This document shows positions 2,847 through 16,709 of a DNA stretch of 25,070 nt, piece by piece. The translations under genes and the position numbers were made by a program. Numbering within the stretch: the stretch's first letter is position 1; the number at the start of each line of letters is the position of its first letter. The stretch comes from a bacterium (GTDB taxonomy: Bacteria > JAMCPX01). The notes beneath the pieces were generated by a model. That model saw only the letters and a program-made list of their open reading frames with translations, did no database searches and was not told where the DNA came from. The stretch covers positions 1 to 25,070 of the forward strand of contig JAJYJX010000011.1 in NCBI GenBank assembly GCA_021789095.1. Direction: 5' to 3'.

Positions 2847-4025
2847 ATGAAACAATTTAAAGGTACAGATTTCTATATACTTGATGATCTTCTTACAGAG
2901 GAAGAGCGTCTTACCAGGCAGAGTGTCAGAGACTTTGTTGATCGCGAGTTTATGCCGAAGATCCAGCAGTCATTCAGGGACGCTCGGTTTCCCATGGAGG
3001 TCGTTCCGTCTCTGGGCAGGCTCGGTGTGTTCGGCGCACAGATAAACGGGTACGGTTGCAGCAAGGTCAGCAATATTGCATACGGCATTATGATGCAGGA
3101 GCTTGAAAGGGGCGACTCGGGACTCAGAAGCTTTGCATCGGTACAGAGTTCCCTTGCCATGACCGCAATCCATGAATACGGCAGCGAAGAGCAGAAAAAC
3201 CACTGGCTGCCCGAGCTTGCCAGTGCAAAAAAGATAGGGTGTTTCGGACTTACAGAGTCCGACTTCGGATCCAACCCGGCAGGCATGCGTACAACAGCAA
3301 CACAGGACGGTAAATATTACGTAATGAACGGCTCGAAGATGTGGATAACAAACGGCTCTGTCGCGGATGTTGCGGTCGTATGGGCAAAGACAAAGAAAGA
3401 CGATCCCAAAAGCATAAAAGGGTTTCTTGTCGAAAAAGGAACCCGCGGGTTCAGCTCAAAAGACATACACAACAAGCTGTCCATGCGCGCATCGGTTACA
3501 TCGGAGCTGAGCTTTGACGAGTGTAAAATCCCCGAAGACAGTATACTGCCTCATTCCGGCGGTCTGAAATCCCCGCTTACCTGTCTTATGCATGCACGGT
3601 ACAGCATTGCCTGGGGCGCAATAGGTGCTGCCATGGCGTGCTATGAAGAAGCGCTCGACTACGCGAAAGAGCGCGTCCAGTTCTCAAGGCCCATTGCAGG
3701 ATACCAGCTTGTGCAGGAAAGGCTTGTGTGGATGCTTTCCGAAATTACCAAGGCGCAGCTCCTTGCCTGGCGCATGGGAAAGATGCAGGACAACGAGAGT
3801 TTAAAGCATTACCATGTCTCGCTCGCAAAGATGAACAACGTAAAAATAGCGCTTGAAATTGCAAGGGCATGCCGGGACATACTCGGCGCAAACGGCATAA
3901 CCGATGAATACCAGTGCATGAGGCATATGAATAACCTTGAGAGCGTTTATACGTACGAGGGCACCAATAATATCCATACCCTTGTGCTCGGAGAGCACAT
4001 AACAGGCATCAAGGCATTTGAATAA
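2847..4025 (+). CDS. Acyl-CoA dehydrogenase, glutaryl-CoA dehydrogenase type
   Basis: A 392-residue acyl-CoA dehydrogenase whose sequence follows mitochondrial glutaryl-CoA dehydrogenase along its length: RSFASVQSSL, GCFGLTESDFGSNP (flavin-contacting loop), MWITNG, LSMRAS, ARYSIAWGAIGAA, RDILGANGI and TYEGTNNIHTLVLG. E87, R94 and S95, which in GCDH contact the substrate's distal carboxylate, are present, as are Y370 and the catalytic base E371. This favours glutaryl-CoA (dehydrogenation, perhaps with decarboxylation to crotonyl-CoA) over a plain fatty acyl-CoA, with electrons passed to ETF. Some anaerobes have non-decarboxylating homologues, so the product is open. It heads the co-directional block. 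The ATG lacks a clear ribosome-binding site, but the alignment start fits. Confidence 0.88.
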   Translation: MKQFKGTDFYILDDLLTEEERLTRQSVRDFVDREFMPKIQQSFRDARFPMEVVPSLGRLGVFGAQINGYGCSKVSNIAYGIMMQELERGDSGLRSFASVQSSLAMTAIHEYGSEEQKNHWLPELASAKKIGCFGLTESDFGSNPAGMRTTATQDGKYYVMNGSKMWITNGSVADVAVVWAKTKKDDPKSIKGFLVEKGTRGFSSKDIHNKLSMRASVTSELSFDECKIPEDSILPHSGGLKSPLTCLMHARYSIAWGAIGAAMACYEEALDYAKERVQFSRPIAGYQLVQERLVWMLSEITKAQLLAWRMGKMQDNESLKHYHVSLAKMNNVKIALEIARACRDILGANGITDEYQCMRHMNNLESVYTYEGTNNIHTLVLGEHITGIKAFE

Positions 4026-4065
4026 GTTCCGTTAGCTCAAAAGGCTGGTATGGGAAGGTGATCAA

Positions 4066-5043
4066 ATGTACAATCTCGTTGTTTCATTCAATGTACCTGA
4101 AGAAGAAAAAGAAACAATAAAGAAAGCATTGAGCGGGTATTGCAATACAATCTTCCTGCACGATATACCGCAGTCTGAAAGGACTGAAGCCATTTCTAAA
4201 GCCGATATTCTTCTCTCGTGGAACCCTTCAAAGGAATGCACCGAAGAGGATTTTCTGTACATGAAAAAAGTTAAACTGCTGCAGCTGGTATCCGCAGGTG
4301 CAGACCATCTTCCTTTTGACAGGCTGAAGGCGGGTATGGTTGTCGCAAGCAACATAGGCGCATACTCCATGCCCATGGCAGAGCATGTTATGGCAATAAC
4401 ACTGGCACTTTTAAAAAGGCTTTTGCCCGGGCAAAAAAAACTGACAGAAGACGTGTTTGACCAGTTTACAGAGAACAGGATGCTCGATGGCGCAGTGTGC
4501 GGGATATTGGGCTATGGCGGAATAGGCAAGGCTGTTGCCCGTTACATGAGGGCATTTAATGTCAAGATATTCGCCGTAAACACCTCGGGCAGGACAGATG
4601 AAGATGTTGCATTCATTGGCACACTTGGAGATCTGGATTATGTATTGTCGAACTCTGACATCGTGGTGATCTCGCTTCCTTTAAACAGGCACACACGGGG
4701 AATCATCGCCAGGGAACAATTCGATAAAATGAAAAAGGACGCTGTTCTGATAAATGTGGCAAGGGGTGACATCATCGACCAGGGGACTTTATACAACCAT
4801 TTAAAAGCAAACCCCATGTTTATGGCCGGGATAGATGCATGGTGGATAGAGCCGTTCCGGCACGGCGAATTCCGCATCAACTATCCGTTTTTCGGACTGC
4901 CGAATGTCCTTGGCTCGCCACATAACTCCGCTATAGTACCGGGGGTCCTGGCAATGGGCATTAAATCTGCATTGGAGAATGTCATAAGGTTTGCAAAAAA
5001 AGAAAGGCCCAGGGGTATTGTGGATTTTGGGGATTATGTCTGA
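4066..5043 (+). CDS. D-isomer-specific 2-hydroxyacid dehydrogenase (NAD-dependent)
   Basis: A 325-residue member of the D-2-hydroxyacid dehydrogenase family. The Rossmann motif GYGGIG is at residues 149-154. The expected catalytic set is present: R233 in NVARGD, E262 in WWIEP and H286 in SPHNSA. It would interconvert a 2-oxoacid and a D-2-hydroxyacid with NAD(P)H in the cytosol. The usual signature around the Glu (DVFxxEP) is DAWWIEP here, with two tryptophans, which may alter the substrate pocket. GGAAGGTGA lies just upstream of the ATG. It sits 40 bp after the acyl-CoA dehydrogenase and before acpS and is probably co-transcribed. The substrate is unknown: related enzymes act on glycerate, phosphoglycerate, lactate or hydroxyglutarate. 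Confidence 0.87.
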   Translation: MYNLVVSFNVPEEEKETIKKALSGYCNTIFLHDIPQSERTEAISKADILLSWNPSKECTEEDFLYMKKVKLLQLVSAGADHLPFDRLKAGMVVASNIGAYSMPMAEHVMAITLALLKRLLPGQKKLTEDVFDQFTENRMLDGAVCGILGYGGIGKAVARYMRAFNVKIFAVNTSGRTDEDVAFIGTLGDLDYVLSNSDIVVISLPLNRHTRGIIAREQFDKMKKDAVLINVARGDIIDQGTLYNHLKANPMFMAGIDAWWIEPFRHGEFRINYPFFGLPNVLGSPHNSAIVPGVLAMGIKSALENVIRFAKKERPRGIVDFGDYV

Positions 5044-5091
5044 AGGGGAATTTATATTGCCAGTAAGTTATGCCTGGGCTATTGTGGGAAC

Positions 5092-5478
5092 ATGGGTATT
5101 GTCGGCATAGGTATTGATATTGTCAGAGTTTCACGTATAGAGAACCTGCTGAAGCAAAAGAAAAACAGGTTCACCAACAGGATCTTTACGGAGGCAGAGC
5201 GTGCCTACTGCGAGCGGTTCAAACACAGGGCTGAACGATACGCCGCACGGTTCGCCGCAAAAGAAGCAGCCAGAAAGGCAGTTTCACCGCTTTACCTGGG
5301 TTATTATAATTATAAAGAAATAGAGGTGGTAAGAAGGTCTGACGGCATGCATGGCATAAAGCTCCACGGAAAACTTTCTGCACTTGAAAAAAAGGACGTA
5401 CAATTTGTTGTTTCTTTAACACATGAGCAAGACTACGCCGTTGCCGTTGTTGTTGCACATTCCAATGGCCGGACGTAA
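5092..5478 (+). CDS. acpS: Holo-[acyl-carrier-protein] synthase
   Basis: A 128-residue protein of the usual AcpS length. It starts GIVGIGIDIVRVSRIE, with Mg2+-ligand D9, and has the second signature RFAAKEAARKA with E58. AcpS transfers the 4'-phosphopantetheine arm from CoA to the conserved serine of acyl carrier protein in the cytosol. In many bacteria acpS sits with pdxJ or nnrE/nnrD; here it lies between a hydroxyacid dehydrogenase and acyl-CoA dehydrogenase genes, which does not explain its role beyond co-expression. The start is the first ATG giving the canonical N-terminus, with a weak GTGGGA upstream. Confidence 0.92.
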   Translation: MGIVGIGIDIVRVSRIENLLKQKKNRFTNRIFTEAERAYCERFKHRAERYAARFAAKEAARKAVSPLYLGYYNYKEIEVVRRSDGMHGIKLHGKLSALEKKDVQFVVSLTHEQDYAVAVVVAHSNGRT

Positions 5479-5498
5479 AACGCACTGTTTCGTAAAGG

Positions 5499-5545
5499 TT
5501 GACACATTAATTTTTTTATTTTAGCCATGAAAGATATACAGGAGG
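5499..5545 (+). promoter_or_regulatory. Weak promoter candidate and strong ribosome-binding site before the degenerate ACAD gene
   Basis: A consensus -35 TTGACA (5499-5504) is followed by a T-rich spacer, but no good -10 lies at 16-18 bp (TAGCCA at 17 bp). CAGGAGGG just ahead of ATG 5553 is a strong ribosome-binding site. The 74-bp gap after acpS could mark a new transcription start, but the promoter is not convincing. Confidence 0.25.
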
Positions 5546-5552
5546 GCGTACT

Positions 5553-6749
5553 ATGACTATGAGCGGTAAACCCGGGGATCCCGATGTTTCTACGCACAGT
5601 GCTTTCACCATTGACGAACAGAAGGCCATTGAAGCACTTGGTCAGGCATTTGCAGTCAAAACCGTCCAGCCCATGTTATCCAGGGGAGGTCCTGACGGTG
5701 ATTCATTGATGGTATCCGGTATCCTGAAAGAGGCTGCAAGTATCGGGCTGCTTGCAGAACATGGTGAAGGTATGTCCGGCACTGAAACAGGCATATGGGG
5801 TACAATTGCTTTATCGGCAGGACCTGCGATGTCTTTAAATCTTCTAAAAAATATTGCACAAGTATGCGGCGGCATATCTGCGAATTTTCATGCTTCAGGC
5901 ATAGGTAATCTTGCGGCAGGCATGTTTAAACTGAACGTGACGGGCAGGCTGGCATATGTAATGCCGGATTTTGACGGGCTGCATATAATGCCCTCTTTGA
6001 ACAATCCTGCCGTAGCTTATAAGACGGCGTCAATAAAAGGAGATTACTCGGGTTCAGGTTATCTTATACATGGAGATAAAGGGTTCTTGCTGCAGGCACG
6101 TGAGACATCATCGTACATAATTGCCTTACCGCTCAAAACGGGTGATACATATTCATGGGGTGTTATGAGCATTCCTGCATCCGATAGTAGTGTAAAGATT
6201 GAAGCCGGAAAGAAGCAAATGGGCATAAGATCTGCTGAGATAATATATCTTAATATATATAATAAAAACATTATAAAACAAGATGTTATATTACTTAACA
6301 ATATAGATTATATACTATTGCTCTCTGCATACTACCTCGCAGGTATTGTTGCCATATTATCGGGTATTGCAAAAGGCGCTGTAGCATCTGCTATCAAGTA
6401 TGCAGGCGAGCGTTACCAGGGAACAAAATTAATCATCGAGCATCCGGCAGTGAGGTTTTTGATCGCGGAATCCGAAACAAGGATATCTGCAGTTGAGGCG
6501 ATGCTTGAGCATGTCCCGAAACAATCTCATGATGCGAAATCCATGCTTAAATATGCCTCAGGGCTTAAATGGTTCGGGTCTGTGCAGTGTGTGCAGGCCA
6601 TTACGGACAGCCTCCAGGTATTCGGAGGGTACGGGTACATGGAAGATTACGGCATGGAAAAACGGCTCAGGGACGGCGAAACACTGAAAAGCCTTTCAGG
6701 TTCTTCGGTTGTGCACCGGCATACAGTAATGGATACTATGGAGGTTTAG
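5553..6749 (+). CDS. Degenerate acyl-CoA dehydrogenase homologue, probably non-catalytic partner subunit
   Basis: The C-terminal half is recognisably acyl-CoA dehydrogenase (AGERYQGTKLIIEHPAVRF, LQVFGGYGYMEDYGMEKRLRDG), but key features are gone. The catalytic loop YEGT is replaced by LSGS (residues 381-384), removing the base glutamate. The flavin-contacting TEPxAGSD loop is not recognisable, with MPDFDG near the expected place. An internal stretch (about 6236-6322) is very AT-rich and encodes an Ile/Leu/Asn/Tyr-rich segment unlike the family. Only 3 bp separate its stop codon from the next gene, an intact acyl-CoA dehydrogenase whose ribosome-binding site lies inside this gene, so translation is probably coupled. 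Alpha2-beta2 acyl-CoA dehydrogenases built from unlike subunits are known in actinobacterial steroid degradation. A structural or regulatory subunit is my inference; gene decay is the alternative, although the frame is fully open. Confidence 0.7.
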   Translation: MTMSGKPGDPDVSTHSAFTIDEQKAIEALGQAFAVKTVQPMLSRGGPDGDSLMVSGILKEAASIGLLAEHGEGMSGTETGIWGTIALSAGPAMSLNLLKNIAQVCGGISANFHASGIGNLAAGMFKLNVTGRLAYVMPDFDGLHIMPSLNNPAVAYKTASIKGDYSGSGYLIHGDKGFLLQARETSSYIIALPLKTGDTYSWGVMSIPASDSSVKIEAGKKQMGIRSAEIIYLNIYNKNIIKQDVILLNNIDYILLLSAYYLAGIVAILSGIAKGAVASAIKYAGERYQGTKLIIEHPAVRFLIAESETRISAVEAMLEHVPKQSHDAKSMLKYASGLKWFGSVQCVQAITDSLQVFGGYGYMEDYGMEKRLRDGETLKSLSGSSVVHRHTVMDTMEV

Positions 6750-6752
6750 CAA

Positions 6753-8060
6753 ATGAAAACAGATCTGAGATACGCGGTTTCCACATTAAAGCCTCTTGGC
6801 AGGCTGCTTGTCAATACGGACAATATAAGCACATGGGAGCATGATACAAAGACCCTGCCGTTTTCATGCAGAAGGCTGAGAAGAAAATACAGGATGTTTG
6901 CAAAGAAGTATCTCGAACCAATAGCTCTTGAAGTTGACGGCGATATTGAACACTTTGATCCCCTTCCTGTGCTGAGAGCAGCAGGCAGGGAAGGGCTGCT
7001 TTCTGAGGCCATGTTCAGGCCGGTTGGTTCCGGTAGTCTCTCTGCAATGCTTTTCAGTGGAGGGCTTACATTTCCCATCGCCTTGAAAGGTGAAGAATTA
7101 ATGAGTGCATGCGGAGGGCTCGGCTTGCTTATACTTGACCATGAACTTGGCATTGCCCCGATAATGCTTGCAGGCGACCTGTTCCAGTTCTTCAAATGGC
7201 TGGGCAAGATAGCCTATGCAAACCTTCACGGAGAGCCGTGTCCTGTTGCCTTTGCAATTACAGAACCGTCCGCGGGTTCTGATGTAGAGGAGACTGAGGG
7301 GGCGCTGAAGGCAAGGCTTATGACATACGCTGAACCTGTTGAAGGCGGCTACAGGCTGAACGGCAGGAAGGTCTTCATAAGTAACGGCGCTGTTTCGAAA
7401 TATGTAACGTTGTTTGCAGCTATGAAGGGCGAAGGTATAGAGTCATGGACATGCTTTCTCCTAGACAAAGAGATGAAAGGGTTTTCCGTTGGCAGGCACG
7501 AAAGGAAGATGGGGCAGAGAGCATCCGATGCCTCGGAGCTGATCCTTGAAGACGTGTTCGTACCAGGCAGCAGGGTGATAGGCAAGCTGCGCGGAGGCTG
7601 GGCATTGAACCGCAATGTGCTTGTATATTCACGTGTGGGTGTTGCGGCAATGTCGCTGGGCATAGCAAGGTCTGCACTTGAAAAGACCGTTGATTTCTGC
7701 AGGACGCATTCCCTTGGGGGTAAAAGGCTTATCGAGTACCAGGATGTACAGCTTTCAATAGCGGACATGATGATAGATGTTTCCGCTGCAAGAGGCATGG
7801 TATGGCAGGCAGCCAGATCAACAAAGCCGTACCAGGCTGCGACCGCGGGTGCAAAGGTATTTGCAAGCGACACTGCGTACAGGGTAAGCAACCTTGCGAT
7901 GGAGATAATGGGTGATTACGGGTATGTGCACGAATACGGTGTTGAAAAGGCGCTCAGGGACGCAAGGCTTACACAGATATACGAGGGTACAAACCAGGTC
8001 AACAGGCTTGCGGTCATAGAATGGCAGTTCGATTCAGAGCTGGCGCAGACAGTGTATTGA
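6753..8060 (+). CDS. Acyl-CoA dehydrogenase (intact)
   Basis: A 435-residue acyl-CoA dehydrogenase with all landmarks: VAFAITEPSAGSD (about 166-177, flavin and substrate contacts), NGRKVFISNG, RKMGQRASDASEL, EIMGDYGYVHEYGVEKALRDA and YEGTNQVNRL with catalytic base E411. It should oxidise an acyl-CoA at C2-C3 and hand electrons to ETF. It is longer than the usual 380-400 residues, mainly through an N-terminal extension of about 40 residues. The GGAGG preceding its ATG lies inside the upstream degenerate homologue, which points to translational coupling and perhaps a mixed oligomer. Chain length of the substrate cannot be judged. A repeat element follows directly downstream. Confidence 0.88.
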   Translation: MKTDLRYAVSTLKPLGRLLVNTDNISTWEHDTKTLPFSCRRLRRKYRMFAKKYLEPIALEVDGDIEHFDPLPVLRAAGREGLLSEAMFRPVGSGSLSAMLFSGGLTFPIALKGEELMSACGGLGLLILDHELGIAPIMLAGDLFQFFKWLGKIAYANLHGEPCPVAFAITEPSAGSDVEETEGALKARLMTYAEPVEGGYRLNGRKVFISNGAVSKYVTLFAAMKGEGIESWTCFLLDKEMKGFSVGRHERKMGQRASDASELILEDVFVPGSRVIGKLRGGWALNRNVLVYSRVGVAAMSLGIARSALEKTVDFCRTHSLGGKRLIEYQDVQLSIADMMIDVSAARGMVWQAARSTKPYQAATAGAKVFASDTAYRVSNLAMEIMGDYGYVHEYGVEKALRDARLTQIYEGTNQVNRLAVIEWQFDSELAQTVY

Positions 8061-8367: not shown

Positions 8368-10296
8368 ATGAAGGAAAATCTTGTAATGAAAATTTTCAAA
8401 TCACACCTTGTCGAAGGTACATTGAAGCCGGGCAATGATATAGGGTTAAGAGTCGATGAGACTTTGCTTCAGGATGCAACAGGCACCATGGCTGCACTCC
8501 AGTTCGAGGCAATAGGCATACCGAGGATAAAGGTAAAAAGGGCTTTCACATTTGTGGATCACAACATGCTGCAGACAGGTTTCCAGAATGCGGACGACCA
8601 CAGGTTCCTTCAGACTTTTTCAAATAAGTACGGACTGTATTTCTCAAAGCCCGGCAACGGCATATGCCACCAGGTATATCTCGAGAGGTTCTCTAAGCCC
8701 GGCATCGTTTTGCTGGGTGCAGACAGCCATACGCCGAATGCAGGCGCAACAGGTATGATAGCAATAGGTGCAGGCGGGCTTGATGTTGCTGTTGCAATGG
8801 CAGGCAGGCCTTACTACACAAAGATGCCTGCTGTTGTTCATGTGAAGCTTACCGGCAGGCTTAAGCCGTGGGTCGCGTCAAAGGATATAATGCTGGAACT
8901 GCTGAGACGCCTTACTGTAAAGGGCGGTGTGGGAAAGGTCTTCGAGTTCGGAGGAGAGGGTGTTAAAACCCTGTCTGTACCGGAGCGTGCCACGATAGCA
9001 AACCTTGGTGCAGAGCTTGGTACGACAACATCCATTTTCCCTTCCGATCAAAGGGTGCTTGAGTACTTTAAGCTCCAGAAAAGAGATAAAGATTATAAGC
9101 CGTTCACCGCAGATCCCGATGCGGAGTACGATGAGGTTGTAGAAATAGCACTTGATAAGCTTACACCGCTGGTCGCCAGGCCATCAATGCCGGATAAGGC
9201 AGTTCCAATAACGGAAGAAGAGGGCAAGGATGTAAGACAGGTGTGCATAGGAAGCTGCAACAACTCGTCTTATGATGACCTCATGCTTGTTGGCGCGATG
9301 TTAAAGGGTAAAAAGGTACATCCTGATGTAAGCCTCACTGTAACGCCGGGTTCAAAGCAGGTGTTTGAAATGGTTGCCGCGTCAGGCGCGCTTCAGCACA
9401 TGATCGGTGCAGGAGCAAGGATACTTGAAGCCGCGTGCGGACCGTGTATCGGGATGGGGCAGGCGCCTCCTTCAGGTTCTGTATCAATCAGGACGATGAA
9501 CCGCAACTTCCTTGGCCGCAGCGGGACCCCTGATGACAGGGTCTATCTTGCAAGTCCTTACGTTGCAGCAGCATGCGCGTTAAAAGGCAGGATATATGAC
9601 CCAAGAAGGCTTGGTTCAAAGCTGCCTGTTATCAGAAAAGCAAAAAGCTTTATTATCGATGACAGCAACATCATCAAGCCGTCTGGAAAACCCGGGAAAG
9701 TCGTCGTGGAAAAGGGGCCCAATATAAAACCATTGCCATTGCGCGGCGAGCTCGAGGATGCAATAACATCCGTCATTCTTATAAAGGTCGGTGACAACAT
9801 TACGACCGACCACATTATGCCTGCAGGAGCAAGGGTGCTTCCTTACCGGTCCAACATACCTGCAATATCCGATTTCGTTTTTTACAACATAGACCGTGAA
9901 TTCCCGAAGCGCGCAAAACAATCCGGCGGCGGCATCATTGTCGGCGGCGGCAATTACGGACAGGGCTCAAGCAGGGAACACGCTGCCCTTGCACCGATGT
10001 TCCTCGGCGTGAAGGCTGTCATGGCAAAATCCTATGCGCGCATCCATCGTTCCAACCTGATAAACTTCGGCATCATACCGTTGATCATCAGGGACCAGGC
10101 GGCATTTGATTCGATCGAACAGGGCGATACGATCGTCATGGAAAATATCAGGGAGCATATCAAAAAAGATGATCGCATGAGTGTTTCCATAAAAAACAGG
10201 GACAAAACAATAGAGGTTTATCTTGATACGAATGCAAGGGAGAGGAAGATACTGCTGTCCGGCGGCCTTTTAAACATGATAAAACAGGAGGCATGA
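8368..10296 (+). CDS. Aconitate hydratase (short, 642-residue form)
   Basis: Aconitase catalyses citrate to isocitrate through cis-aconitate with a [4Fe-4S] cluster. The cluster cysteines are visible: C297 in CIGSCNNSSYDD and C357/C360 in EAACGPCIGMG. Other family signatures are DHN (65-67), LLGADSHTPNAGATGM, IRTMNRNFLGRSG and, in the swivel domain, TTDHIMPAG, NYGQGSSREHAAL and RSNLINFGIIPL. At 642 residues it is the compact form common in anaerobic bacteria rather than the roughly 890-residue AcnA. AAAAGGGG precedes ATG 8368; a second ATG at 8386 is a possible start. A homoaconitase-like role is possible, but citrate to isocitrate fits the 2-oxoacid oxidoreductase downstream. Confidence 0.88.
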   Translation: MKENLVMKIFKSHLVEGTLKPGNDIGLRVDETLLQDATGTMAALQFEAIGIPRIKVKRAFTFVDHNMLQTGFQNADDHRFLQTFSNKYGLYFSKPGNGICHQVYLERFSKPGIVLLGADSHTPNAGATGMIAIGAGGLDVAVAMAGRPYYTKMPAVVHVKLTGRLKPWVASKDIMLELLRRLTVKGGVGKVFEFGGEGVKTLSVPERATIANLGAELGTTTSIFPSDQRVLEYFKLQKRDKDYKPFTADPDAEYDEVVEIALDKLTPLVARPSMPDKAVPITEEEGKDVRQVCIGSCNNSSYDDLMLVGAMLKGKKVHPDVSLTVTPGSKQVFEMVAASGALQHMIGAGARILEAACGPCIGMGQAPPSGSVSIRTMNRNFLGRSGTPDDRVYLASPYVAAACALKGRIYDPRRLGSKLPVIRKAKSFIIDDSNIIKPSGKPGKVVVEKGPNIKPLPLRGELEDAITSVILIKVGDNITTDHIMPAGARVLPYRSNIPAISDFVFYNIDREFPKRAKQSGGGIIVGGGNYGQGSSREHAALAPMFLGVKAVMAKSYARIHRSNLINFGIIPLIIRDQAAFDSIEQGDTIVMENIREHIKKDDRMSVSIKNRDKTIEVYLDTNARERKILLSGGLLNMIKQEA

Positions 10297-10299
10297 ACT

Positions 10300-10602
10300 A
10301 TGGCACAATGGTATAAGGTATCCTGCGAGAATTGTGGTTATACAAATGAACTCATTTTGGGTTCATCCGTAACTGCGGAAAGCCTGAAAGATTTAAACGA
10401 GGACTCAGCGGACTTCAAGATCTTCAAATGCAAGAACGACCGTGAACTGTTTACCATAGATGTGCACAGCAGCGACTTCGATAACAAATGTCCTGTGTGC
10501 GGTGCTGCCGTAACGGAAATAAACATTGATAAAATCGATGGACATACCTGTCCCAGGTGTGATAGCAAAACACTAAAGATAGAGCCTGTAGTACACATGT
10601 AG
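10300..10602 (+). CDS. Small zinc-ribbon protein of unknown function
   Basis: A 100-residue protein with three cysteine pairs: C9/C12 (CENC), C64/C67 (CPVC) and C84/C87 (CPRC), plus a lone C44. Pairs of this type usually form zinc ribbons. There is no signal peptide or membrane helix. It starts 4 bp after the aconitase stop, with AGGAGG upstream, and the ferredoxin-type flavoprotein follows 22 bp later, so it is surely co-transcribed. It could be a metal-binding or redox accessory protein for its neighbours. I do not recognise a named family. Confidence 0.75.
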   Translation: MAQWYKVSCENCGYTNELILGSSVTAESLKDLNEDSADFKIFKCKNDRELFTIDVHSSDFDNKCPVCGAAVTEINIDKIDGHTCPRCDSKTLKIEPVVHM

Positions 10603-10623
10603 AAAGGCAAAAGGACAAGGAGC

Positions 10624-12417
10624 ATGAAGGAAGAAAAAACCTATCTGTCATCAGAACGGGAATCCTTTAATCATCTGACAGCGGCAAGGCGCGTTGAAAG
10701 GTCTGTTTACTTCTCAAACAATAAAAAGGATTTTGCATGGATGGGAGAAAATGTTCCCTGCCAGACAGCATGTCCTGCATTAACGAACATTCCGGGTTAT
10801 ATATACACCGATTATCAGGAAAGGTACGGCAGGTCTTACGAGATCAACCGCTATGTAAACATACTGCCGGGTGTGCTCGGCAGGATCTGCTCAAGGCCGT
10901 GCGAACTCGCATGCAGGCACGGATGGCCGGGTTTTGGTGAACCGGTTGCAATATGTCATTTAAAAAGGGTCGCAAGTGATTTCAAGCCTGAAGGACACCG
11001 CATAGAAGAGTTCATGTTCGGGCCTTCGGGCAAGAAGGTCGCAGTTGTCGGTTCCGGACCCGCGGGCCTTGGTGCTGCACACGACCTTGCCATATTCGGT
11101 CATAGGGTAACAATATATGAGGCACTTGAGCGTCCAGGCGGCATGCTCAGATACGGCATACCGGAATTCAGGCTCCCAAGGGACATACTCGATGTTGAGA
11201 TCTCGAACATCCTCAGACTCGGCGTTGACCTTCATGCAGGCGTGCGTGTGGGCAAGGATATAAAGCTTGAAGAACTTCTCAGAAGCTATGATGCCGTGGT
11301 TCTTACAGCAGGTACCTACAGTCCGAACAAGCTCGGGATAAAAGGCGAAACCCTCGATCATGTTTATTCGGGTCTTGATTTCATGATGGATGCGAATTCG
11401 GGCAAGGATGTTTTTGTAGGCAGTAAGGTCCTCGTTGTCGGCGGCGGGTATACTGCAATGGACTGTGCGAGAACGTCGATGAGGCTTGGTGCCAGGAGAG
11501 TGATTATAAACATACTTACAACAGAGGATTACATCACGGTAAACAGGGATGAACTCAATGAAGTAAAAACAGAAAATGTAGAGATAAGGGGGCTGGTTTC
11601 AATCGAGCAGGTAGATCGTTCGGGCAATAGCCTTGGTGTAAGGTTCAAGAGGAACAGGCTCGGCGGGTACAGTGAAAAAGGAGAGAGGCTTGCTGTACCG
11701 ATAAAGGGGTCTGATTTTACGGATGATGCCGACAGCGTGATCTATGCCGTAGGCCAGAGACCTGAAATTTCGTTTGTAAAGAGTGTCTTAAGGCTGGATA
11801 AGGGCAATATGATAACATATGACAGGTCAAGCTTTGCAACGGACGTAAAAGGGCTTTTTGTTGCGGGCGATTTTGGAACCGGTGCCTCCACGGTCATCGA
11901 ATCCATAGCGTCCGGACGCAATGCAGCATGGGCCATTGACAGATACCTTGCAGACCGGACACGGAGAAAAAAGGTTGTACGGTTCGAGAAATACGCAGAA
12001 AAGCAGAGGGAGCGTGCATGGGATTTCATCCCGAGGCAGGCCATGCCCACACTTCCGGTAAAGGAACGTGTTGATCAGGTAGAGGTCGAACTCGGGCTGA
12101 ACATGACCCTTGGTAAAGAGGAGGCAAAGAGATGCTACCTGTGCTACCTGAAGTTTGAGATAGATGTCCCGAGATGCATATACTGCCGGTACTGTATTGA
12201 TGTCTGTCCTACAAACTGCATACATACAACAAAGGACGTTATAACGGAAGATGACGGAAAGCAGAGGCTGGTTGTTACGGATAAATGGAACGAGGTAAGC
12301 GCAATCGTTATTGACAACAATAACTGCATACGGTGCGGGAATTGCAAGAAGGTGTGTCCTGTGGAGTGCATAGATGTTGTCAAGGTTGAGCTCATAGAGC
12401 AGGATGTAGAGGTATAG
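10624..12417 (+). CDS. GltD/NfnB-like FAD oxidoreductase with C-terminal 2x[4Fe-4S] ferredoxin domain
   Basis: A 597-residue protein in three parts. The N-terminus (40-115) carries the cysteines typical of the iron-sulfur head of glutamate synthase small subunit and NfnB-type proteins (C46, C50, C89, C93, C97, C111). The middle is a two-dinucleotide flavoprotein, with the FAD motif GSGPAG at 143-148 and the NAD(P) motif VVGGGYTAMDCA near 270. The C-terminus has two ferredoxin motifs, CIYCRYCIDVCP and CIRCGNCKKVCP, for two [4Fe-4S] clusters. No glutamate synthase large subunit is nearby. The genes downstream encode a KorAB-like enzyme without its own ferredoxin subunit, so this protein may carry electrons between KorAB and NAD(P). 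That role is inference. AAGGAGC precedes the ATG. Confidence 0.87.
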   Translation: MKEEKTYLSSERESFNHLTAARRVERSVYFSNNKKDFAWMGENVPCQTACPALTNIPGYIYTDYQERYGRSYEINRYVNILPGVLGRICSRPCELACRHGWPGFGEPVAICHLKRVASDFKPEGHRIEEFMFGPSGKKVAVVGSGPAGLGAAHDLAIFGHRVTIYEALERPGGMLRYGIPEFRLPRDILDVEISNILRLGVDLHAGVRVGKDIKLEELLRSYDAVVLTAGTYSPNKLGIKGETLDHVYSGLDFMMDANSGKDVFVGSKVLVVGGGYTAMDCARTSMRLGARRVIINILTTEDYITVNRDELNEVKTENVEIRGLVSIEQVDRSGNSLGVRFKRNRLGGYSEKGERLAVPIKGSDFTDDADSVIYAVGQRPEISFVKSVLRLDKGNMITYDRSSFATDVKGLFVAGDFGTGASTVIESIASGRNAAWAIDRYLADRTRRKKVVRFEKYAEKQRERAWDFIPRQAMPTLPVKERVDQVEVELGLNMTLGKEEAKRCYLCYLKFEIDVPRCIYCRYCIDVCPTNCIHTTKDVITEDDGKQRLVVTDKWNEVSAIVIDNNNCIRCGNCKKVCPVECIDVVKVELIEQDVEV

Positions 12418-12419
12418 GT

Positions 12420-13454
12420 ATGCCGAAGAAAGCTTTTAAATATGTTATAATAGGGGACGGGCATGCAGGCAACAGCGCTGCGAAAACACTGAGGGAAGGC
12501 AACCGTGACGCGGAAATAATAATTATATCATCCAAACCCACTCATTACTTTGATCACAGTCTTCTCGCCAATTTCCTGCTGGATAAAAAAGACATAACTT
12601 CTCTCTACTTATACCCGTACACATGGTACAAAGAAAACAATATAAGGCTGAGGCTCAACCAGACCGTTACAAAGGTTATTCCGGACAAGCACCAGCTCAT
12701 TCTCGCACACAACGAGCGTATACACTATGACAGGCTTCTTGTTGCATCAGGGGCAAAACCAAAACTGCCGGAATCCCTGTCAAGGTACAAGAGCCTGCTT
12801 ACGGTCTTTACTGATGCTGTTGAGGCATTGAAACTAAGAGAAAGGCTTGGAAAATTGAAACATGTAACGATGGTTGGAGGGGATTGTATAGGTCTGCATC
12901 TTGCCGGTGCAATGTTAAAGCTCGGTAAATCAGTTACTTTTGTACTTAATGAATATAATTTCTGGCCTCTTGAGTATGATGAAGCGGTCAAAGACAAGCT
13001 TATAGAGAGCCTTAAAAAGAAGCACATCGAAGTGATTGCGGACGATATAACAACAGAGATTGTAAAGGACGGTACGGGCCTTAATGTCATGACAAAGAAC
13101 GGTAAAATCATAAAAACGGATCTTGCATTCCTTACTTCCGGTATGGTTCCTAACATAGATTTTCTTGACGGCAGCGGTATAGATGTTCAGACCGGCATAC
13201 TGGTTGATGAATACATGCACACAAGCGCACAGGATATATGGGCAGCAGGGGAGTGTGCGACGGTTTATTATCCGGAATTGAAAGATTACCGCCAGACAAC
13301 AGGTGAGATCAACGCAAAGGTGCTTGGAAACATATCCGCAAGGAACATGCTTGAGGAAAAAAAGGTTGTAAGCCTTGCTGAGCCCGGCAAGATTACAATC
13401 GAGGGCGAGGATTTTATTACCTACGGGTGGAAAGGATTCTCAATTGACATATGA
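12420..13454 (+). CDS. FAD-dependent NAD(P)H oxidoreductase (pyridine nucleotide-disulfide oxidoreductase fold)
   Basis: A 344-residue flavoprotein. The N-terminal FAD motif GDGHAGNSAAKTLR is followed by LLVASGAKPKLP, by a second Rossmann motif VGGDCIGLHLAGAM for NAD(P)H, and by DIWAAGECA, which closes the FAD site. It resembles rubredoxin reductases and the flavin half of assimilatory nitrite reductase. No redox-active CxxxxC pair is visible, so it is not a thiol reductase. It begins 2 bp after the previous stop codon and overlaps korA, so it belongs to the same transcript and probably the same electron-transfer unit. Whether it binds the GltD-like protein or KorAB directly is not known. Confidence 0.85.
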   Translation: MPKKAFKYVIIGDGHAGNSAAKTLREGNRDAEIIIISSKPTHYFDHSLLANFLLDKKDITSLYLYPYTWYKENNIRLRLNQTVTKVIPDKHQLILAHNERIHYDRLLVASGAKPKLPESLSRYKSLLTVFTDAVEALKLRERLGKLKHVTMVGGDCIGLHLAGAMLKLGKSVTFVLNEYNFWPLEYDEAVKDKLIESLKKKHIEVIADDITTEIVKDGTGLNVMTKNGKIIKTDLAFLTSGMVPNIDFLDGSGIDVQTGILVDEYMHTSAQDIWAAGECATVYYPELKDYRQTTGEINAKVLGNISARNMLEEKKVVSLAEPGKITIEGEDFITYGWKGFSIDI

Positions 13455-15207
13455 AAAAAGCGTGACAATTGAAATATGCGGGAGCTCCGGGGACAGATCC
13501 CTTGCAGCAGGCGAGATACTTATAAAGACCCTGTCTGACATCGGGTATCATGTCATATCATTCGATGCTTATCCTGCGGAGATAAGGGGGTTCGGGAAAA
13601 CTGTTGCGCACATGAGGGCGGGCAGGGAATTCATGCTCAGCCTCAGCCGCAAGGTCGACATACTCATATCGCTGAACGACAGGTACTCCATGGAGCAGCT
13701 TAAAAGTTTAAACGATGAGGGCGTAGTCATATTTGATAACAGGCCCATGGAGACAGTGGAGGAGAACGCATGTATTGCAGGGCATCTGGGCCCAGGCATG
13801 TATCTCTACGGCATACCTCTTTACCAGTTGAGCCAGAAGACAACGAATGAGTCCAGGTCAAGGAACATTGTTGTTCTCGGGGCTGTTTCAGCATTATTTA
13901 ACATACCTAAAAATGAGTTTATAAATAATCTCACTGTAAAGCTCGGGAAAAAGGACAAGAGCGTGGATGCGGTTGTTGCTGCATTTGAAGAAGGGTACAG
14001 ATATGTGAGCGAAAACATTGTAAAGCTTGATCCCTACAGTTTTGAAAGGCTGTCCGTGGACAGGAAGGGCTACAAGCTGATGGACGGGAACAAGGCTGTT
14101 GCACAGGGGGCTATTGATGCGGGGTGCAAGCTGTATGCTGGGTATCCTATTACGCCTGCAACAAAGATCATGGAGGTACTGTTTACAGAACTGCCGAAGT
14201 ATGGCGGTGTTGTCGTACAGACCGAGGATGAGATCTCTGCAATAGGGCATGTGACAGGTGCCGGGTTTGCAGGTGTAAGGGCTATGACAGCAACCTCAGG
14301 ACCGGGCTTCTGCCTTATGACGGAGTTTATCGGATACAATGTGATGTCGGAGAATCCGGTTGTCATTGTTGACAGCCAGAGAGGAGGGCCTGCAACAGGC
14401 CTGCCCACAAAAACAGAACAGTCCGATCTTAACCACGCCTTATTCGGAGGCAATGGAGATACACCGAGGATAGTCATAGCACCAACAAGCGTAAAAGAAT
14501 GCTATCAATGGACAGCAGAGGCGTTCTACCTGGCAGAAAAATACCAGATGCCCGTGATCATCCTTATAGACCTGTTTTTATCGTTGTCTGTTAGAAACGT
14601 TTTACTTGACCCGTTACCCAATTACAAAAAAAGCAGTAATAAAGTTCCGGCTCAGGAAGATATGAAGCTTTATCTCCGGCAGAAGATAACGGATGATGGC
14701 GTATCCCCAAGGGCGCTTCCCGGACAGGAAAACGGGTATCAGGTTGTTTCAGGCCTTGAGCAGAATGAGTATGGAACACCTGTTTATGACGAGCATTCAC
14801 ACACAATGATGACGGAAAAAAGGTTCAGAAAGATAAAGGCGGCGCTCGAGAACGATGTTCCCCCGCCGCTGAGGAGCGGTACAAAGGGCAAGGTAAAACT
14901 TGGCGTTATATCATGGGGCTCAACAGCCGGTGCTGCTGCAGATGCACTTGACAGTGTTTTAAAGGAAGGCAGGAGCGTGGCAATGCTGAAGATCATCGTG
15001 ATGAATCCGCTCAGGGAAAAGGAGATACAGGAATTCCTGGACGATTGCGAAAAGGTGCTTGTACCGGAACTGAACTACGAGGGTCAGTTTGCAAACTGGC
15101 TTTCAATGCACTTCCAGAAGAAATTCTACAGGTATAACAAAGTAGCAACAAGGCCTATCACGCATGACGAAATTGAGGAAGAAATAGAGAGGTTGTTGAA
15201 GGAATAA
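13444..15207 (+). CDS. korA: 2-oxoacid:ferredoxin oxidoreductase, fused gamma-alpha subunit (KorA-like)
   Basis: The first 190 or so residues are the gamma domain (GSSGDRSLAAGEIL, YPAEIRGFGKTVAHMRAG), and the rest is the alpha domain (GNKAVAQGAIDAGCKLYAGYPITPATKIME, TEDEISAIGHVTGAGFAGVRAMTAT, SQRGGPATGLPTKTEQSDL). This fused layout is that of KorA of 2-oxoglutarate:ferredoxin oxidoreductases, which make succinyl-CoA and reduced ferredoxin. I chose the TTG start at 13444, preceded by AAAGGA at 7 nt spacing, over an ATG at 13375 that would overlap the upstream gene by 80 bp; GTG 13462 is also possible. The glycine-rich gamma loop has SGDRS where KorA proteins usually have SGDG. Context (aconitase, KorB) favours 2-oxoglutarate, but another 2-oxoacid cannot be excluded. 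Confidence 0.85.
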   Translation: MTYEKSVTIEICGSSGDRSLAAGEILIKTLSDIGYHVISFDAYPAEIRGFGKTVAHMRAGREFMLSLSRKVDILISLNDRYSMEQLKSLNDEGVVIFDNRPMETVEENACIAGHLGPGMYLYGIPLYQLSQKTTNESRSRNIVVLGAVSALFNIPKNEFINNLTVKLGKKDKSVDAVVAAFEEGYRYVSENIVKLDPYSFERLSVDRKGYKLMDGNKAVAQGAIDAGCKLYAGYPITPATKIMEVLFTELPKYGGVVVQTEDEISAIGHVTGAGFAGVRAMTATSGPGFCLMTEFIGYNVMSENPVVIVDSQRGGPATGLPTKTEQSDLNHALFGGNGDTPRIVIAPTSVKECYQWTAEAFYLAEKYQMPVIILIDLFLSLSVRNVLLDPLPNYKKSSNKVPAQEDMKLYLRQKITDDGVSPRALPGQENGYQVVSGLEQNEYGTPVYDEHSHTMMTEKRFRKIKAALENDVPPPLRSGTKGKVKLGVISWGSTAGAAADALDSVLKEGRSVAMLKIIVMNPLREKEIQEFLDDCEKVLVPELNYEGQFANWLSMHFQKKFYRYNKVATRPITHDEIEEEIERLLKE

Positions 15208-15212
15208 ACCCC

Positions 15213-16028
15213 ATGGATAAAATAGATCAATACGTAAAACCAGAGGTGTATTATCCGGACAATGACATACAGGAGGTAAAGGAAAAAGGGGTGCTCCAGT
15301 ACAGGTCTGAAAGGCTTCCGACATGGTGTCCAGGGTGCGGGTATTTCGGCATAGAGACGGCGTTGACCAATGCGCTCGGCAATATGGGTATAAAACCAAA
15401 AGACCTGATAATCGTTTCAGGCATAGGGTGTGTGGGCAGGTACCCGTTTTTTATAAGAGGTTATGGTATGCATACCCTGCATGGAAGGGCGCTTCCCGTG
15501 GCATCCGGAGCAAAGCTTGCAAGGCCTGAATTGACGGTCCTTGCTTTGATTGGTGATGGTGACGGGCTCGGCATAGGCGCAGGACACCTGCCCCATACAA
15601 TACGGCGTAATCCCGATATAACATGTGTTCTGTTTGACAATGCAATATACGGACTGACAAAGGGACAGACCAGTCCCATGACCCCTCAGCATCAGGTAAC
15701 GAGATCGCACCCTATGGGAAACCCTGACCCCAAGATGAATCCAGTACTGCTTGCACTGTCTTACGGGGCAACGTATGTTGCAAGAGGGTTTGCAGGTACG
15801 CCTGATGAGATGCAGAGATTGTTTGAAGAGGGCATAAAACACAAGGGGTTCTCTTTCATACACATAATGAGTCCGTGCGTAACATTCGATAAGGTAAACT
15901 ATCTTTATGAGAACCTGAGAAGCTGGGTAAGTCCTCTGCCCCCGAGTTACGATAACACGAATCTGGACAAGGCATTTGATATTGCCCGTGGTACAGAGCT
16001 TTACACAGGGCTTATATACAAGCAGTAG
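15213..16028 (+). CDS. korB: 2-oxoacid:ferredoxin oxidoreductase beta subunit (KorB-like)
   Basis: The 271-residue thiamine-diphosphate subunit. WCPGCGYFG (C39, C42), C73 in SGIGCVGR and the C-terminal cysteine in MSPCVTFD are the ligands expected for the [4Fe-4S] cluster. LIGDGDGLGIGAGH (113-125) with N143 in FDNAIYGLTKGQTSPMTP is the TPP/Mg2+ site. It pairs with the KorA-like protein 5 bp upstream. Neither subunit carries the two-cluster delta ferredoxin found in pyruvate enzymes, so electrons must leave to a separate carrier; the iron-sulfur flavoprotein upstream is a candidate. AAGGAATAAACCCC precedes the ATG. Confidence 0.9.
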   Translation: MDKIDQYVKPEVYYPDNDIQEVKEKGVLQYRSERLPTWCPGCGYFGIETALTNALGNMGIKPKDLIIVSGIGCVGRYPFFIRGYGMHTLHGRALPVASGAKLARPELTVLALIGDGDGLGIGAGHLPHTIRRNPDITCVLFDNAIYGLTKGQTSPMTPQHQVTRSHPMGNPDPKMNPVLLALSYGATYVARGFAGTPDEMQRLFEEGIKHKGFSFIHIMSPCVTFDKVNYLYENLRSWVSPLPPSYDNTNLDKAFDIARGTELYTGLIYKQ

Positions 16029-16073
16029 ATCTGTTAGGGCAGTATGAATCCTTAAAAAGGAGGTATAAACTAT

Positions 16074-16709
16074 ATGCCGACCAAATCCGCATTACAGGCT
16101 CTTTCTATTTTAAGAAACCCGTCACAGTTCCATTGGTATGTTGTTCCGTTCCTGTTAGTTGTCCTTTACATATATTTCGTAGAAGTAGGTAAGAACGACT
16201 GGAGCCGTTTTTTTGCAGGGCTTGCCCTGTGGGGCATGGACTGGTTCAACGAGATATGGAACGGCCTTGTTTTTCACTTTACGAATTATGCACCTGTATG
16301 GGGTACGCCTGGTAAAACGGCATTTTTGATCTTAATAGGCCTTAATATAGAGATCTGCTTCATGTTTGCGATCATGGGCGTTGCAGTGACATATGCCCTC
16401 CCTGCTGACAGGAAAAAGAAAATATTGGGGATCCCCAACCGCGTTTTCTATGCGGTTGCCTTCAGTATAACAAGCGTAATAGTGGAATACCTGCTTCATG
16501 CAGCAGGGGCACTGACATGGGATTATCCGTGGTGGAATGTAAAGGCACCATGGCTCATTTTCCTTATAGGCTATCTGCCATTCTTCGTTGTGTCATTCTG
16601 GGTGTATGACATGGAAAGCATAAAGAAGAAGGTTTTCGTGACCGGGACTATACTCGGGTTCGACCTTGCGTGCCTTATCGTGTTCGGCGCCGTGCTAAAG
16701 TGGATTTAA
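16074..16709 (+). CDS. Five-helix integral membrane protein of unknown function
   Basis: A 211-residue protein with about five hydrophobic helices (near 20-38, 85-107, 126-146, 155-177 and 186-208). Tryptophan-rich stretches occur (WGMDWFNEIWNGLVFHF, TWDYPWWNV). Acidic and polar residues lie within membrane parts (NIEICF, VEYLLHAAG), which could serve ligand binding or catalysis. A strong AAGGAGGT lies upstream. It ends the co-directional metabolic block, 45 bp after korB, so it may serve the same pathway, perhaps in transport or membrane anchoring. I do not recognise the family. Confidence 0.75.
   Translation: MPTKSALQALSILRNPSQFHWYVVPFLLVVLYIYFVEVGKNDWSRFFAGLALWGMDWFNEIWNGLVFHFTNYAPVWGTPGKTAFLILIGLNIEICFMFAIMGVAVTYALPADRKKKILGIPNRVFYAVAFSITSVIVEYLLHAAGALTWDYPWWNVKAPWLIFLIGYLPFFVVSFWVYDMESIKKKVFVTGTILGFDLACLIVFGAVLKWI

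Follow-up and report, generated by a model that had tools for sequence, protein, structure and literature searches.

Gene organization of the locus

The window analyzed in this work is one whole contig (C97; 25,070 nucleotides) of a 2.15 Mb bacterial draft genome, from a phylum sampled by 9 genomes, all belonging to one family. Its forward strand carries, at 10624-16028, a block of four genes, here called GltDFd, PadHl, KorA and KorB, which recurs in several phyla and is predicted to encode a NAD(P)-linked 2-oxoglutarate oxidoreductase. A previous sequence-only reading had delimited a larger group of six genes (10300-16709), tightly spaced on the same strand, and all six are indeed found.

GltDFd (10624-12417), a KorC-like protein of 597 amino acids, is composed of an N-terminal Fe-S domain, a GltD/NfnB-type module for flavin adenine dinucleotide (FAD) and NAD(P), and a C-terminal [4Fe-4S] ferredoxin tail, as defined by Pfam and NCBIfam matches to Fer4_20, Pyr_redox_2 and a Fer4 dicluster. 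PadHl (12420-13454; 344 amino acids; Pyr_redox_2) is a FAD flavoprotein of the PadH/AorC/ferredoxin-reductase class. KorA (13444-15207), a 2-oxoacid oxidoreductase subunit in which gamma and alpha are fused, contains the motifs YPITP and RGGP; its start codon (TTG 13444 or GTG 13462) falls where the PadHl gene ends or just inside it, an overlap common to family members. KorB (15213-16028; 271 amino acids) is the thiamine pyrophosphate (TPP) subunit, with cysteines for one [4Fe-4S] cluster: C39, C42 and C222 are invariant, and C73 is found in 14 of 15 sequences. Both pass the corresponding family models, KorA with 574.4 bits for TIGR03710 (cut-off 482.75) and KorB with 267.8 bits for TIGR02177 (cut-off 261.9). 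Neither contains a ferredoxin domain, and no delta subunit gene is found in the block, as the sequence-only reading had noted.

Conservation and distribution of the four-gene block

The GltDFd-PadHl-KorA-KorB block was found in 45 distinct genomes, counted after dropping one evident duplicate (L165, the same as L064). These include 8 of the 9 genomes of the window's family and, beyond it, members of Thermodesulfobacteriota, Magnetococcales, Rhodocyclaceae and other groups, NaphS2 being among the carriers; a directed search detected the block in 16 of 199 Rhodocyclaceae-family genomes and, for the class of NaphS2, in 6 of 85. GltDFd, PadHl and KorA follow one another in this order on one strand in all 44 readable cases (L158, where the contig ends inside GltDFd, was left out of the count), and KorB lies directly after KorA in all 25 loci with enough sequence. 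Recurrence of the same order in about 45 genomes places the association of the four genes far beyond chance.

The sequence-only reading would have had to be abandoned if its flavoproteins were common without KorAB. For GltDFd the opposite was found: within 386 sampled genomes, all 14 matches with at least 49% identity are block members, while the next ones, at most 41% identical, never lie in such a block, and sampled and directed searches together returned no relative of at least 44% identity away from KorAB.

Conservation does not extend to the two outer genes of the six. The zinc-ribbon gene (10300-10602, + strand) encodes a small protein with CxxC pairs, whose zinc-ribbon Pfam matches are weak, one being above cut-off; only the window and three family members carry it next to the block, and L021, L024, L025 and other lineages have no copy there. 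The gene for a five-transmembrane (5-TM) protein (16074-16709, + strand), featuring five hydrophobic segments and no Pfam or NCBIfam family match, is present in only 3 of 9 family genomes, in one of which (G001) it lies away from the block, and was not found at other block loci. Both proteins were judged to lie outside the complex, and a complex of six gene products was rejected: the conserved six-gene order that had been expected is reduced to the four genes that travel together. As a side observation, the 5-TM protein defines an orphan family, with members in the window, L169 and L170.

The phylogenies of KorA and GltDFd agree with this picture. The KorA proteins of the block group in a single clade (support 100) that excludes the canonical KorA of Magnetococcales and that of Aromatoleum aromaticum EbN1, whose three-gene KorC-KorA-KorB set is compared with the block below. 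Block GltDFd proteins likewise form one clade (support 100), and in an unrooted tree they fall, together with EbN1-type KorC, on the same side of a branch (support 97) that sets them apart from 23 other GltD-like proteins. Over 25 genomes the four proteins show strongly correlated pairwise distances (r = 0.93-0.98), part of the correlation being ordinary species relatedness. The block and the KorC form were never found together in the 199 Rhodocyclaceae-family genomes, where the latter occurs in 41 and the former in 16 (hypergeometric p = 0.02, relatedness ignored); they may thus be alternatives for one function.

The gamma domain of KorA contains a 31-amino-acid insertion in L020, L021, L022, L024 and L025, the family members aligned there, which is found neither in the KorA of the window (13744-13750, after residue ~101) nor in other lineages. 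In a metagenome-assembled genome of Bacteroidetes (L128 1482-7307) a different GltD-like gene, outside the block, lies directly upstream of KorA/KorB-like genes; GltD-like proteins may have been paired with 2-oxoacid oxidoreductases more than once.

A predicted four-subunit oxidoreductase

On the basis of the constant gene order, the domain content, the common history of the proteins and the changes in their motifs, we infer that the four gene products assemble in the cytoplasm into a single NAD(P)-linked 2-oxoglutarate oxidoreductase of four subunits, a reading to which we assign a probability of about 0.6. KorAB would decarboxylate 2-oxoglutarate using TPP and coenzyme A (CoA); electrons would exit via the single [4Fe-4S] cluster of KorB towards the ferredoxin tail of GltDFd, which would stand in for the missing delta ferredoxin, and would then pass through the Fe-S domain and the FAD of the same protein to NAD(P)+. 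PadHl would be a permanent second FAD subunit which, with its altered NAD(P) pocket, would most likely relay electrons to an external partner or hold the complex together. The reaction may run in reverse, or share electrons with ferredoxin. As for the single complex linking 2-oxoacid oxidation to NAD(P) that had been proposed earlier, its four-gene core behaves as a unit, while membership of the zinc-ribbon and 5-TM proteins is not supported by conservation.

The sequence features of GltDFd are compatible with such a path. Its FAD motif, GxGPAG, is kept, with one position varying, and its NAD(P) motif, GxGxTAxDCAR, is invariant except for one position. Where an Arg-Arg pair usually contacts the 2'-phosphate of NADP, some Thermodesulfobacteriota have RR, Rhodocyclaceae have RT and the window's family has LT; nucleotide preference may therefore vary between lineages. 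Invariant cysteines are found in the N-terminal domain (46, 50, 89, 93 and 97) and at 11 positions of the tail (504, 507, 518, 521, 524, 532, 568, 571, 574, 578 and 582), Cys528 being present in only 10 of 45 sequences; the invariant cysteines of the tail therefore exceed the needs of two clusters. The AlphaFold model has a confidence score (pLDDT) of 89, and among known structures it best matches StnABC, NfnABC and Nfn in their GltD-like portions, with a TM-score, by target length, of ~0.8 to the NfnB modules 4ylf_B and 5jca_L.

PadHl, described earlier as a second FAD/NAD(P) protein, keeps invariant FAD-motif glycines, but its NAD(P) site is probably not working: the middle glycine of the second nucleotide motif is replaced by Asp (GGD) in 43 of 44 sequences, the sole exception being L065, whose neighbouring GltDFd frame contains a stop codon. 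Gly occupies this position in the solved relatives 3cgb, 1xhc, putidaredoxin reductase and AorC. The model (pLDDT 87) features the FAD/NAD-reductase fold of AIF and ferredoxin reductases. In AIF an acidic substitution in the NADH-binding domain, G308E, at a residue that may or may not correspond to the PadHl glycine, is pathogenic (PMC8069373). PadHl thus appears to hold FAD but to have little or no affinity for NAD(P)H; because of the Gly to Asp change it is most likely a relay to an external carrier or partner, or a docking flavoprotein with a structural role, and a function as second NAD(P)H site is disfavoured.

Electron acceptors

The genome of the window contains a second Kor system, located in a SdhB-SucC-SucD-KorDABC operon on contig C187 (L029 3861-9497), which resembles an operon of the oxidative tricarboxylic acid (TCA) cycle and encodes a canonical ferredoxin-type enzyme with its own 78-amino-acid delta ferredoxin. 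Its presence weighs against the idea that NAD(P) is a side acceptor and that the block works chiefly to reduce ferredoxin for low-potential steps, such as the reduction of aromatic rings. This idea draws on the NADP-linked enzyme of Azoarcus evansii, to which the regeneration of reduced ferredoxin for use by benzoyl-CoA reductase has been ascribed (PMC8163825), and on the occurrence of the block in NaphS2 and Rhodocyclaceae; yet Magnetococcales, Desulfoluna and the window's phylum have the block with no evident aromatic pathway beside it, and we regard ferredoxin supply as an unlikely main function.

Flavin-based bifurcation, and fixation of CO2 by reverse electron flow, had been suggested by the sequence-only reading and are speculative. 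In a bifurcating or confurcating 2-oxoglutarate oxidoreductase, the FAD of GltDFd would split electron pairs between a low-potential path, formed by the tail and KorAB, and a path through PadHl; NAD(P)H could then drive reductive carboxylation of succinyl-CoA or reduction of ferredoxin. GltDFd does belong to the NfnB/GltD class, its nearest folds come from bifurcating enzymes, and a second flavoprotein is always present. The same class, however, also holds non-bifurcating enzymes, such as glutamate synthase and DPD, and a high-potential NAD site would require the canonical NAD(P) motif, which PadHl does not have. Pfam analysis of the block reveals no NfnA-like domains (FAD plus [2Fe-2S]), no EtfAB-like subunit and no HydB-like bifurcating flavoprotein, the search having been confined to the block; the KorC form, for its part, lacks an adjacent PadHl. 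With NAD(P)+ as the acceptor, 2-oxoglutarate is oxidised in a downhill reaction, so that bifurcation is unnecessary, and we hold it to be distinctly unlikely.

Substrate

Aconitase is encoded immediately upstream of the zinc-ribbon gene (8368-10296, + strand; NF005558 and TIGR01342, both above cut-off), and is taken as pathway context, not as a subunit. It lies upstream of the block also in L020, L022 and L023, and near it in L055, L056, L061 and L064. Citrate synthase accompanies it in L055 and L056, glutamate dehydrogenase and a fumarase-type lyase in L061, while a 2-oxoglutarate dehydrogenase E1-type protein is found near the block in L059. At the position of Asp468 of the Sulfolobus alpha subunit, all 11 aligned KorA sequences have Leu, as does the 2-oxoglutarate-specific KorAB of Hydrogenobacter (PMC5020499), and the KorB of the window has Arg at the Lys49 position. 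TCA neighbours and KorA residues favour 2-oxoglutarate as the substrate, without proving it.

The TCA neighbours might instead be incidental, and the substrate another 2-oxoacid, for example an aryl- or branched-chain one: many loci have no TCA gene beside the block, and PadHl resembles PadH of phenylglyoxylate dehydrogenase, though HcaD equally. Since TCA or 2-oxoglutarate genes are found near the block in separate lineages, and the residues at the tested positions are of the 2-oxoglutarate type, this seems quite improbable. Weakest is the notion that GltDFd and PadHl are free-standing reductases, only co-transcribed with an ordinary ferredoxin-dependent KorAB: assembly of the complex is indeed a prediction, but an unbroken gene order and a shared phylogeny across several phyla, a GltDFd subfamily not seen without KorAB and a ferredoxin-like tail complementing the missing delta subunit make it very unlikely.

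Farther upstream of the aconitase gene, at 2847-8060, the window carries three acyl-CoA dehydrogenase-like genes, one of which gives no matches to the N-terminal and middle domains, along with a 2-hydroxyacid dehydrogenase and an AcpS-like gene.

Weight and implications of the proposal

Several points count against a four-subunit NAD(P)-linked 2-oxoglutarate oxidoreductase. Both the assembly and the activity of the complex are predicted from sequence. GltDFd of the window's family does not feature the usual Arg pair for the 2'-phosphate of NADP, which would leave NADP, NAD or neither as its acceptor. The block stands alone in many genomes, and the substrate argument is drawn from about six loci and an analogy of residues. 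PadHl might still bind a nucleotide despite its degenerate glycine motif, and the p value of 0.02 for mutual exclusion in Rhodocyclaceae takes no account of relatedness.

Kor enzymes are usually annotated as ferredoxin-dependent, and predictions of redox balance and of TCA cycle direction in anaerobes follow from this assignment. If the proposal is true, a recurrent NAD(P)-linked Kor with its own flavoproteins would alter such predictions for sulfate reducers, magnetotactic bacteria and beta-proteobacteria. That PadHl has consistently lost the canonical NAD(P) motif also raises the question of what the second flavin does.

Comparison with known systems

Ferredoxin-dependent KorAB of the Magnetococcus type (PDB 6n2n) and KorDABC share the core chemistry of KorA and KorB with the block, but have no flavoprotein subunits. 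The crystallised Magnetococcus 2-oxoglutarate oxidoreductase (6n2n) is disfavoured as a product of the block: one block KorA of Magnetococcales is a remote match to it, and the same genome also has separate canonical KorAB genes, with SucD next to one of the pairs.

Phenylglyoxylate dehydrogenase (PadEFGHI) and the AOR complex of A. aromaticum (AorC, PDB 8c0z) contain, like the block, a PadH/AorC-type FAD subunit within a low-potential oxidoreductase. PadHl differs from PadH in being shorter, in its degenerate NAD motif and in its score of 153.6 bits for the PadH profile NF045765, below the cut-off of 475 and equal to that for HcaD. To our knowledge, PadEFGHI has no GltD-like subunit. The bifurcating transhydrogenases NfnABC and StnABC, as well as NfnAB, share the GltD-like module and provide the best fold matches, but their partner subunits are replaced in the block by KorAB and PadHl.

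The closest parallel is a 2-oxoglutarate:NADP+ oxidoreductase of Azoarcus evansii, reportedly described by Ebenau-Jehle et al. in 2003. The sequence-only reading had mentioned an NADP-linked Kor from Thauera; the enzyme was in fact reported from A. evansii, that of Thauera being a ferredoxin-dependent KorAB (PMC9973337; PMC10134865), and one subunit of the A. evansii enzyme has been placed in the GltD family (PMC10134865). We infer that the set carried by plasmid 2 of A. aromaticum EbN1 (L167 4890-9594), composed of KorC (595 amino acids), KorA (622) and KorB (351), is of the A. evansii type. The plasmid is conjugative and has two acyl-CoA dehydrogenase genes next to the set; contig C1 of G491 carries another KorC copy, with 75% identity.

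EbN1 KorC is GltD-like, adjoins a fused KorA and a KorB, and features the same ferredoxin tail with shared cysteines: the tail of GltDFd, earlier described as an addition, is thus neither unusual nor unique, and the idea of a unique tail was rejected. The EbN1 set differs in having three genes and no PadHl beside them, while PadHl is part of the block in 44 of 44 readable cases; identities between the two are 34% for KorC, 30% for KorA and 38% for KorB, and EbN1 KorA falls far outside the block clade. Literature searches over open-licence papers, which are weak evidence of novelty, returned no description of the four-gene form. The pairing of a GltD-ferredoxin protein with Kor has a close precedent in EbN1 KorC; what is new is the PadHl subunit and the wide spread of the four-gene form.

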